NCBI GenBank assembly: GCA_035546775.1
Contig: DASZWD010000033.1
Coordinates: forward strand, 1-45,608
DNA from: Acidimicrobiales bacterium
GTDB taxonomy: Bacteria; Actinomycetota; Acidimicrobiia; Acidimicrobiales; JACCXE01
Direction: 5' to 3'
DNA length: 45,608 bases
Of the stretch, positions 7,693 through 11,429 are shown one piece after another. Positions within the stretch are counted from its first letter, which is position 1. Every line of letters starts with the position of its first letter. Both the position numbers and the translations under genes were made by a program. The notes beneath the pieces are model-generated. The model saw only the letters and a program-made list of their open reading frames with translations, did no database searches and was not told the DNA's origin.

Positions 7693-9534
7693 ATGGGCGA
7701 CGACACCGAAGCGCGCGACGCGGCGTGGTGGTCGGGTGATCCGGCGCGCACGCCGGCGCGGATGTACGAACGGTCGGTACGCACGAGTCACTACGTCACC
7801 GTCCGGGATGGCACGCGCATCGCCGTCGACCTGTATCTGCCCGCGGGCGCGACGGGCCCGGTGCCCACGCTCCTGACGATCACGCCGTACTTCCGCTCGA
7901 TGGAATTCCGCGCCCCGGTCTTGAAAGCGGTGTTCCGGGCGGCGGGCATGGCGGCGACGGAGTGGGGGCACGAAATGGCGCGCTTCGGCTTCGCCACCGT
8001 CCTCATGGACATGCGCGGTGCCGGCGCGTCGTTCGGCCAGAAGAAGTCGATGATGATGTTCGACGTCGTCAACGACGGCTACGACGTCATCGACTGGATC
8101 GTGGCCCAGCCGTGGTCGAACGGGCGCGTCGGGTCGACGGGCATCTCCGCGCTGGGCATGACGGGCCAGTGGTTGGCCACGAGCAAGCACCCGGCGCTCA
8201 AGGCGATCGCGCCGCGCTTCACCGTGTTCGACATGTATCGCTCGCTCCACTGCAACGGCGTCCACTGCCAGCGCTTCGTCGCCGACGTCGGTCGAATGCT
8301 GCGGGCGATGGACTCGAACCGGTTATGGGACACCGTCGAGAACCCTGCGGCCAAGGCGATGTTCTTCGCGCTCGTGCAGGGTGTGACGCCCGTCGACGAC
8401 GACAAGGGACGCAAGTTGCTCGCCGCCGCCGTGGCCGAGCACGCCGACAACGAGGGTTTCGACGAGGACATCAGCGGCATCAGCTACCGCGACGACCTGT
8501 TGCCCGTCGCCGGCGGCGGCGCCACGCTCGACACGCAGGCGCCCGCGACCCACGCCTCCGACATGGAGGCCGCCGGGATCCCGATCTACGCCTACGGCGG
8601 TTGGTACGACGCGGCGTTCGGCCGCGAGATGATCAGCCTGCACAACACCGTGCGCACGCCGGGCAGCCGGTTGGTCCTCGGCCCGTGGGATCACGGCGCG
8701 AAGAACGACTGCAACCAACCGGTGAGCGGCAAGCGGCCCTCGGCGTTCGACCAAGCCGGCGAGCTGGCGCGGTTTTTCGACCTGCACCTGCGCGACGTCG
8801 ACCACGGCGTGATCGCCGAAGACCCCGTGCACTACTTCACCATGGGCGAGTGTGTGTGGAAGTCGGCGCCGGCGTGGCCGCCGCCGTCGGAACCGGTGCG
8901 GTGGTTCCTCGCCCCGGGCAACGCGCTGTCCACGTCGCCGCCGGCTAACGCGGCGGTCGACGCGTACCGCGTCGACTTCGACGCGGGTACGGGCGTGTGG
9001 TCGCGCTTCGGCAAGCACCTGTCCGGCGGGTTCGACCCGGCGTCGTATCCCGAACGCGCCGACCGCGACCACAAGCTGCTCGTCTACGAAACGGCACCGT
9101 TTGCCGAGCCGACAGAGGTGACCGGCCACCCGGTCGTGCGCCTGTTCGTGACGTCGTCGGAACCCGACGCGTCGGTGATCCTGTATCTCGAGGACGTCGC
9201 GCCCGACGGCACCGTCGTGAACGTCACCGAAGGCCACATGCGCCTGTCGCACCGCAAGCTCGCCGACCCGCCCGACTTCTGGCACACCGGCCCCTTTCAC
9301 AGCGGCAAGCGACAGGACTGCTCACCGGTCACGCCTGGCGAAACGGTGCAGCTCGACTTCGACCTCATCCCGGTGTCGTGGTTGTTCTGCCCGGGCCACG
9401 CGCTGCGCGTCGCCATCGCCGGCGCGGACAAGGACAACTTCGTGCGCATCCCGGCCACCGGCGACCCGGTCCTCGAGTTCGGGCGCGGGGGTGACGCCGC
9501 GTCCTACGTCGAGTTGCCCGTCGTCGCGCGGTGA
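7693..9534 (+). CDS. CocE/NonD family serine hydrolase (copy 1)
   Basis: This 613-aa protein is an alpha/beta hydrolase of the X-Pro dipeptidyl-peptidase/cocaine-esterase family, which cleaves esters or acyl peptides. The N-terminal domain has the nucleophile elbow GISALG with Ser152. Asp306 in GGWYDAAF and His334 in GPWDHGA complete the expected triad. The C-terminal third (from about 395) is the jelly-roll domain, with the TEVTGHPVVRLFV segment typical of the family. There is no signal peptide, so it is probably cytoplasmic. The ATG at 7693 follows GGGGAGGG. It overlaps the next gene, a paralogue, by 4 bp (GTGA). The actual ester or amide substrate is unknown. Confidence 0.9.
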   Translation: MGDDTEARDAAWWSGDPARTPARMYERSVRTSHYVTVRDGTRIAVDLYLPAGATGPVPTLLTITPYFRSMEFRAPVLKAVFRAAGMAATEWGHEMARFGFATVLMDMRGAGASFGQKKSMMMFDVVNDGYDVIDWIVAQPWSNGRVGSTGISALGMTGQWLATSKHPALKAIAPRFTVFDMYRSLHCNGVHCQRFVADVGRMLRAMDSNRLWDTVENPAAKAMFFALVQGVTPVDDDKGRKLLAAAVAEHADNEGFDEDISGISYRDDLLPVAGGGATLDTQAPATHASDMEAAGIPIYAYGGWYDAAFGREMISLHNTVRTPGSRLVLGPWDHGAKNDCNQPVSGKRPSAFDQAGELARFFDLHLRDVDHGVIAEDPVHYFTMGECVWKSAPAWPPPSEPVRWFLAPGNALSTSPPANAAVDAYRVDFDAGTGVWSRFGKHLSGGFDPASYPERADRDHKLLVYETAPFAEPTEVTGHPVVRLFVTSSEPDASVILYLEDVAPDGTVVNVTEGHMRLSHRKLADPPDFWHTGPFHSGKRQDCSPVTPGETVQLDFDLIPVSWLFCPGHALRVAIAGADKDNFVRIPATGDPVLEFGRGGDAASYVELPVVAR

Positions 9535-11429
9535 GCGCCACCACCGACACCGCCTGGTTCACCGGGCCACCGAGCGCGAGCCTGTGTTCTGTCGCACCCG
9601 AAACGGGTGCGACAGAACACAGGCTCGGCTCTAGCCAGCAGCCGGCACCCATCTACAGCGGCCACACGCGCGAGTCGCGGTACATCACGATGAGCGACGG
9701 CACGCGCCTGTCGGCCGACCTGTACATGCCGAAGGGCCTGCCGATGGGCGAGCGCATCCCGGCGCTGATCTCGCAGACGATCTACGGGCGCGGGCTCGAG
9801 TTCCGCACGCGGCTGTTCGAGCGGTTGGCGCGGCGTCTCATGCCGGGCGTCATCGACATCGGCGAGGACATGGCGCGTTACGGCTACGCGACGGTGGTGG
9901 TCGACCTGCGCGGCTCGGGCGCGTCCTTCGGCAACAAGCGTGCTCACCTCATGCCGGACGCCGTGGCCGACGGCGCGCAGGTCATCGACTGGATCGTCGC
10001 CCAGCCGTGGTCGAACGGCCGCGTCGGCGCCACCGGGATCTCGGCGTTGGGGATGGCGGCGATGTGGCTGGCGACGTCGGGTCATCCGGCGCTCAAAGCG
10101 GCGGCGCCGCGCTTCAGCATCTTCGACATCTTCGCCGGCACGCATCCTGGCGGGTTGCTGCTGAAGAACCTCGTGGGTGACGTCGGCGCCCGCCTGCGCG
10201 CCCTCGACCAGAACCGCGTGCACGAAGGCGGCGGTGCGCCGGTGACGAACGCGCTCATTCGCCTGCTCGTGCGCGGCAACCGTCCCGTCGACGCCGATCG
10301 CGACCGTTCGCTGCTCGCGCATGCCGTCGCCGCGCGCGGCGACAACGAGTATTTCGACGAGACGATCGCGTCGAGCCGCTACCGCGACGACGGTCCGGTC
10401 GCCGACGGCATGCCGTTGCTCGACGCGCTGAGCCCGGCGACCCACGTCGACGCGATCGCGGGCGCGGGCGTGCCCGTCTACACCGTGGCCGGCTGGGCTG
10501 ACTCGGCGTTCACGCGCGAGATGGCGAACATGTTCGCGACGCTGAGCCCGCGCGTCCCGGGCTGCCGGCTCACGATCGGTCCGTGGGATCACGGCGCAGC
10601 GCGGTTGCGCAGCCCGATGCAGGACAAGAGCCGTGCGCCCGACTTCGACTTCGCCGCCGACCTCGTGCGCTTCTTCGACCTGCACTTGCGCGACCGCGAC
10701 TGGGGCCTGGCCGACGAGGCGCCCGTGCACTACTTCACCCACGTCGAGGAGCGGTGGCACGAGGCGGACTCGTGGCCGCCGCGTGCGATGCCGCAGGTGC
10801 TCTACGCGGGTGACGGCTGCCTGCTCGTGCGCGAACCGCCGGCGGGAGCGGGCGCCGACCGGCTGGTCGTGGCGGGCGACGCCGGCGCGGGGCGACACTC
10901 GCGGTACGCGTCTCCCGGCCTCGGGCGCGCCGCGACCGAAGAGCCGGTCGAGGCGACGCCGCCGGGTAGCAGCCTGCTGTATCGCAGCGACGCATTCGGC
11001 GAGGACACCGAGGTCACCGGGCATCCGTCGGTCACGCTGTTCGTCGGCTGCGACCGCGACGACGCCGCGCTGTTCGCCTACCTCGAAGACGAAGGGCCCG
11101 ACGGCGCCCGCCGCCACGTGACCGAAGGGTTCCTGCTGCTGAGCCTGCGCGAGGTGCACGCCGACGCGCCGTACACCCAGGCGGGGCCGTGGCGGCCGAT
11201 GCGGCGTGCCGACGAGGAGCCGATGAAGCCCGACGCCGTCGAGGAGATAACGCTGGACCTGCTGCCGGCGTCGTGGCTGTTCGCCACCGGTCATCGCGCC
11301 GTGTTGCGCGTCGTGGGCGCTGACCCCGCCAACTTCGTGACGCCGCTCGAGCCGGCCCCCACGCTCACGCTGCACCGCGGCGTCGACCGACCCTCTCGGC
11401 TCGTCCTTCCCGTCGTCGAAAGGAGCTGA
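9531..11429 (+). CDS. CocE/NonD family serine hydrolase (copy 2) with an in-frame palindromic insertion
   Basis: This is a paralogue of the upstream gene (632 aa) with the same layout: nucleophile Ser171 in GISALG, Asp in GWADSAF, His in GPWDHGA and a C-terminal jelly-roll with TEVTGHPSVTLFV. The GTG start overlaps the previous stop. Its N-terminus aligns with copy 1 on both sides (TAWFTGPPS with AAWWSGDPA, then PIYSGHTRESRYIT with RMYERSVRTSHYVT). About 20 extra residues separate those blocks, and codons 16-33 of them are encoded by a perfect 51-bp palindrome. Translation could start later, but the flanking match argues that the insertion is inside the gene. It is followed after 2 bp by an amidase gene. 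Confidence 0.88.
   Translation: MSATTDTAWFTGPPSASLCSVAPETGATEHRLGSSQQPAPIYSGHTRESRYITMSDGTRLSADLYMPKGLPMGERIPALISQTIYGRGLEFRTRLFERLARRLMPGVIDIGEDMARYGYATVVVDLRGSGASFGNKRAHLMPDAVADGAQVIDWIVAQPWSNGRVGATGISALGMAAMWLATSGHPALKAAAPRFSIFDIFAGTHPGGLLLKNLVGDVGARLRALDQNRVHEGGGAPVTNALIRLLVRGNRPVDADRDRSLLAHAVAARGDNEYFDETIASSRYRDDGPVADGMPLLDALSPATHVDAIAGAGVPVYTVAGWADSAFTREMANMFATLSPRVPGCRLTIGPWDHGAARLRSPMQDKSRAPDFDFAADLVRFFDLHLRDRDWGLADEAPVHYFTHVEERWHEADSWPPRAMPQVLYAGDGCLLVREPPAGAGADRLVVAGDAGAGRHSRYASPGLGRAATEEPVEATPPGSSLLYRSDAFGEDTEVTGHPSVTLFVGCDRDDAALFAYLEDEGPDGARRHVTEGFLLLSLREVHADAPYTQAGPWRPMRRADEEPMKPDAVEEITLDLLPASWLFATGHRAVLRVVGADPANFVTPLEPAPTLTLHRGVDRPSRLVLPVVERS
9577..9627. repeat. Perfect 24-bp inverted repeat (3-nt loop) inside a coding region
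   Basis: Positions 9577-9600 and 9604-9627 are exact reverse complements around the loop AAA. The element is 51 bp, a multiple of three, so it adds 17 codons without a frameshift. Sequence comparison of the two adjacent CocE paralogues shows that the extra residues lie exactly here. No T-tract follows, so it does not look like an intrinsic terminator. No other copy was seen in the window. Confidence 0.95.

Follow-up and report, generated by a model that had tools for sequence, protein, structure and literature searches.

The 51-bp palindrome that lies in frame within a CocE/NonD family hydrolase gene of an Acidimicrobiales bacterium is, we consider it likely, a copy of a short, dispersed and non-autonomous REP-like palindromic repeat, which spreads in the genome, is kept mostly at gaps between convergent genes and is tolerated in protein linkers and tails. 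The best-documented in-frame palindromic inserts are those of Rickettsia and Wolbachia and, among REPs, those of a few other genomes. Here, the same element was present in convergent junctions and in interdomain linkers of a compact acidimicrobiid genome. Its copies, some perfect and others decayed to varying degree, constitute a natural series for testing repeat spread and the supply of linker peptides to proteins.

The palindrome and its host gene

Within the window, the whole stretch of 45,608 nucleotides that was analysed, the repeat at 9577-9627 ranked first among 41 inverted repeats (Table 1). Its arms are complementary in 24 of 24 nt (100%) around a 3-nt loop, which bears out the perfect 51-bp palindrome of the preliminary description. 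The chance expectation for such a palindrome is about 3e-9 per window on the basis of base composition, and in third-order Markov controls (10 x 360 kb) the top score never exceeded 15, compared with 24 for this repeat. The copy can be read openly in all three frames of both strands. In Rfam no match at 9577-9627 reached the gathering score; only sub-threshold miRNA hairpin matches were obtained, which were taken as chance.

The reading frame of the host gene runs unbroken from the GTG at 9531 to 11429 with the palindrome inside, and its product matched TIGR00976 (E 4e-84) and Peptidase_S15. The two neighbouring CocE paralogues (7693-9534 and 9531-11429) align on either side of the element, the second having 20 additional residues, in agreement with the approximate number given earlier. 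These residues are also absent from an orthologue in a named Acidimicrobiaceae MAG (L290, PKXH01000002.1, 43% identity), which is exactly 20 residues shorter at the element site, so that orthologue and paralogue both present the empty site. Twenty extra residues correspond to an insert of 60 bp, of which the palindrome accounts for 51 bp; the remaining 9 bp add three residues to the 17 encoded by the element.

The preliminary description had raised the possibility that translation begins past 9627. This is countered by homology upstream of the element, where the residues DTAWFTGPP align with DAAWWSGDP of the paralogue and DAAWWVGDP of the L290 orthologue, and which supports the start at 9531. 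Downstream, the residues YSGHTRESRYITMSDGTRL match the homologues as well, and no in-frame ATG, GTG or TTG occurs between 9627 and the ATG at 9691, a codon that already falls within a conserved strand of the protein. Given the homology on both sides and the lack of an earlier start codon, translation through the element is the best reading of the sequence. In an AlphaFold model (11 sequences), residues 1-34 had pLDDT values below 50 and the fold started near residue 45; the element (residues 17-33) is therefore predicted to occupy a disordered N-terminal extension.

Table 1 Features of the host gene, its palindrome and further repeats (positions refer to the window)
Feature	Position	Strand	Family	Description
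CocE/NonD family hydrolase, host gene	9531..11429	+		GTG start overlaps the preceding gene's stop; S15 domain begins at residue 56
CocE paralogue	7693..9534	+		Neighbouring gene without element; empty-site comparison
Palindromic repeat	9577..9627	.	A	51 bp, in frame, covering CocE codons 17-33 approximately
Left arm	9577..9600	+	A	24 nt
Loop	9601..9603	+	A	3 nt
Right arm	9604..9627	+	A	24 nt
Core TGTGTTCTGTCGCACCCGAAACGGGTGCGACAGAACACA	9583..9621	.	A	39 bp; same core at the convergent-junction copy G000:C30:330699
Peptide stretch SLCSVAPETGATEHR				Putative stretch of the CocE protein across the element
Fused E1 alpha/beta			A	Between E1_dh and Transket_pyr
PriA			A	Ahead of the recognised part
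ABC-F			B	In the linker that joins the second ABC domain to the C-terminal domain
PadR			B	Directly past the last domain
Biotinyl-carboxyltransferase			G	Between its two domains
CoA-transferase III			E	Directly ahead of the domain
Prim-Pol				Shorter palindrome, after Prim-Pol
Family B			B	CGAACTGGTCCTGTCCAGCACCGG-AAA-
Family C			C	TGGCGGCCAT...CGCGTC-TAY-
Family E			E	TTCTGTGAAGG...
Family G			G	Loop AAAGACC

Copies in the host genome

BLAST, pattern and covariance searches for the arm and core recovered at least 13 copies that share the 39-bp core in the host genome (G000; 3.75 Mb, 75 contigs, 97.5% complete). With copies in coding regions and empty sites in homologues, this dispersed family, named A, supports the proposal of a mobile palindromic family tolerating coding regions, its usual site being the convergent gap. 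The consensus is TGTGTTCTGTSGCACMC-GWWWC-GKGTGCSACAGAACACA with the conserved symmetric core TGTGTTCTGT...ACAGAACACA. The copy at C30:330699 is identical to that of the window at 39 of 39 core positions, and the flanks are unrelated. The loop centre GAAAC of the window copy returns in other copies and appears as GTTTC in those read the opposite way, i.e. both orientations are present. The stem was shown to be under structural constraint: five pairs were altered on both sides of the arms, and the covariation score of the family was equalled by one of 500 shuffles.

According to a simple codon-usage gene caller (own script), the 13 family-A copies occupy nine convergent gaps, one co-directional gap and three open frames. 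Those in convergent gaps mostly lie 0-23 bases from both stop codons. Nine of ten intergenic copies at convergent junctions represent a strong enrichment (p ~8e-7, by junction number), since convergent gaps make up merely 0.4% of the sequence in the sampled contig C30; the sampled 360 kb of the genome were about 96% coding. Family A was thus shown to prefer convergent gaps, with coding copies in the minority.

The three intragenic copies of family A are in frame within the CocE/NonD hydrolase, a fused E1 alpha/beta dehydrogenase and PriA. Their arms contain zero, two and five mismatches, respectively, a graded decay that suggests insertions of different age. Across several families, all eight intragenic copies (CocE included) were located outside domain envelopes, with a rough p of ~2e-5 that was calculated post hoc under the assumption of uniform sites. 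The coding copies were shown to be restricted to linkers or tails. For E1 and ABC-F, linkers with the element are no longer than those of the nearest orthologues; judged by these about equal lengths, the element looks like a replacement of linker sequence rather than a pure addition.

Further palindrome families

A scan for all palindromes in 0.85 Mb of the host genome (23%) revealed at least four more families of similar behaviour, consisting of near-perfect palindromes of mostly 47-53 bp. Like family A, the families B, C, E and G reside mostly in convergent or co-directional gaps, with some copies inside genes. Although 51 bp is the exact size of several copies in several families, palindrome ends varied between 37 and 59 bp in the scan, and a fixed element length is therefore just a suggestion.

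Family-B copies were located at G000:C30:76380-76426, C42:30516-30566 and C14:38158-38210, and their CGAACT ends resemble those of some family-A copies. The two in-frame copies of family B, in the ABC-F linker and the PadR tail, encode the near-identical peptide TGxVQHRKPVLDRT. In family G (G000:C30:23704, C30:320446, C60:55340 and C60:70330) the arms vary around a constant 7-nt loop AAAGACC, and one copy is in frame within the biotinyl-carboxyltransferase gene. Family E, defined by TTCTGTGAAGG ends, comprised six copies in the 0.85 Mb sampled (G000:C30:174792, C30:257677, C17:37679, C17:70058, C57:44983 and C14:31396), five at convergent gaps and one within the CoA-transferase III gene. A separate palindrome with 18-bp perfect arms (G000:C30:205785-205823) was observed in a DUF222/HNH endonuclease gene, just upstream of the matched domain region.

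Occurrence in relatives

The nearest genome available for comparison, of the same genus (G001), has an ABC-F protein of just ~77% identity. In the genomes G002 and G014, the junction that corresponds to the C55 copy is no more than a short gap that holds no long palindrome, and the only hairpin of G007 at the C49-orthologous junction is small and different. Two hairpins were read by eye: at the C31 junction G001 has an imperfect one that differs from the element and has family-B-like ends, and at the C55 junction G007 has another. Judging from the junctions of G002, G014 and G007, the family-A element is lineage-specific, yet hairpins return at the same places. In two distant relatives (200 kb sampled each) mainly shorter GC-rich stems of 14-16 bp were present, which are of the ordinary terminator type.

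The core pattern (22 fixed bases) had no match beyond the host genome in the genome and viral contig collections. In the search of relatives that the preliminary description had suggested, BLAST in 58 relatives gave no match, and a covariance model run on 397 genomes of the order, of limited sensitivity with few candidates scored, found one distant look-alike in G204. The sensitivity of the searches beyond the host was limited in general. In G204, a relative from another family of the order, a palindrome with CGAACCTGTGCCCGTTTCGCACC... (L097, G204:C27:40785-40840) is in frame within an amidohydrolase gene and indicates that the habit is wider than the host species.

In G001, a palindrome with CCGAACCCG-type ends lies inside a predicted gene (L276:6193-6253, G001:C463). 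Both genes converging at the C55 junction end at or near contig ends in the same genome (G001:C63 and G001:C417; L244, L248), possibly because a hairpin or repeat interrupted the assembly there.

Relation to known elements

Rickettsia palindromic elements (RPEs), which measure about 100-150 bp, enter Rickettsia proteins in frame (PMC3767692, PMC2229807, PMC10969869). Like these and the Wolbachia palindromic elements, the repeats described here form several palindromic families per genome, with in-frame sites in unrelated conserved genes and additional intergenic copies. The likeness to RPEs seen in the preliminary description holds for the presence in conserved protein genes without a break of frame. 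It does not extend to length, as the repeats are near-perfect hairpins of 47-53 bp, nor to the main habitat at convergent junctions or the host, which belongs to a different phylum. With 51 bp against about 100-150 bp and a different phylum, the resemblance is presumably one of behaviour, not membership.

GTAG and CGTC REPs are enriched in convergent and co-directional gaps and are also located within genes; several types coexist per genome, the intragenic copies have been explained through tolerance in modular proteins, and CGTC REPs have no dedicated transposase (PMC3733652). Short palindromes of multiple types in such gaps, some of them intragenic, were likewise observed here, and with 10 of 13 family-A copies extragenic the repeats fall under the general REP definition. 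They differ by longer, more perfect stems and loops of 1-7 nt. On reading the aligned copies and flanks, no GTAG tag was present at the stem foot, and no CGTC tag was noticed in the copies read. GTAG REPs are normally partnered by RAYT, whereas a search for Y1/RAYT transposases (PF01797), positive in E. coli and other controls, gave no match in the host genome at 97.5% completeness. The repeats join the behaviours of RPEs and REPs and fully correspond to neither definition.

With MITEs and with SPRITE of Streptococcus pneumoniae, which is terminator-like (PMC10969869), the repeats share the form of short, non-autonomous inverted repeats. They are distinguished by few loop bases between the arms and by the lack of target duplications and parental IS ends. 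Thirty elements of five families yielded one 4-bp direct repeat, fewer than in the random control, so the target duplications sought at the insertion sites did not materialise. Arm matches with 0-1 mismatch were all located within palindrome copies, and lone matches with 2-3 mismatches were near control level. In the absence of target duplications and Y1/RAYT, transposition is a candidate route only. In the literature covered, which was incomplete, no account of such elements in Acidimicrobiia was found.

Spread, retention and alternative readings

Copies of a REP-like repeat would spread within the genome through some copying process, perhaps by way of a hairpin intermediate. Most would be retained in convergent gaps. 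There, both transcripts would carry a stable hairpin without harm, and the mRNA 3' ends of either strand may be protected or defined by it. A copy would occasionally land within a gene and survive there if the frame stayed open, the net length change was divisible by three and the insertion point was a linker or disordered tail, with selection then removing harmful insertions. The CocE protein of the window would in this manner have gained the 17 element-encoded residues and three more in its N-terminal extension.

It is quite possible, if less probable, that termination is the main role of the repeats: bidirectional intrinsic terminators of convergent genes would have been copied around, and the coding copies would be accidental; this overlaps with the reading preferred here. 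As with such terminators, stable hairpins of up to -50 kcal/mol stand between convergent stop codons, nine copies of family A and several of the other families filling convergent gaps to within a few bases of both, and the T-tail is good at the C31 junction, on one strand, and moderate at C49. However, tail scores were low on most strands, most copies have no T-tract on either strand, and the window copy was not called in terminator prediction. Since most copies are without a U-tract, the main explanation does not lie in classical intrinsic termination. Actinobacterial terminators without U-tracts exist, which leaves some room for termination. Yet terminators do not require the 39-bp sequence common to these loci, the intragenic copies lie in translated DNA, and orthologous junctions elsewhere manage without a palindrome.

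A bolder proposal, which we regard as unlikely, unites the families in a superfamily of roughly 51-bp (17-codon) hairpins with differing arms, a common length and partly common ends (CGAACY...RGTTCG). Propagating in this actinobacterial lineage without RAYT or target duplications, it would imply a new transposition or template-copying route. If so, hairpin elements would supply proteins with ready-made in-frame linkers.

Selection for a palindromic binding site of a nucleoid protein or regulator could have spread a conserved symmetric core such as that of family A. This is a very improbable explanation, as the arms vary with compensation and several unrelated families occupy the same habitat, both of which point to the hairpin structure rather than a single binding sequence. 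A translational-control hairpin of the CocE gene had also been proposed: the element begins 46 nt past the start codon, but the same sequence occurs at 12 other sites unrelated to start codons, after stops and deep in other proteins including mid-E1, and is not conserved in homologues, which with the start at 9531 upheld by homology renders this role scarcely credible. Long palindromes can cause assembly errors in a draft genome, but a chimeric hairpin, or a wrongly placed start that would leave the element intergenic, is equally far-fetched in view of the coding homology on either side, the lack of an in-frame start codon between 9627 and 9691, and the 13 copies, whose flanks differ and whose variation is compensatory.
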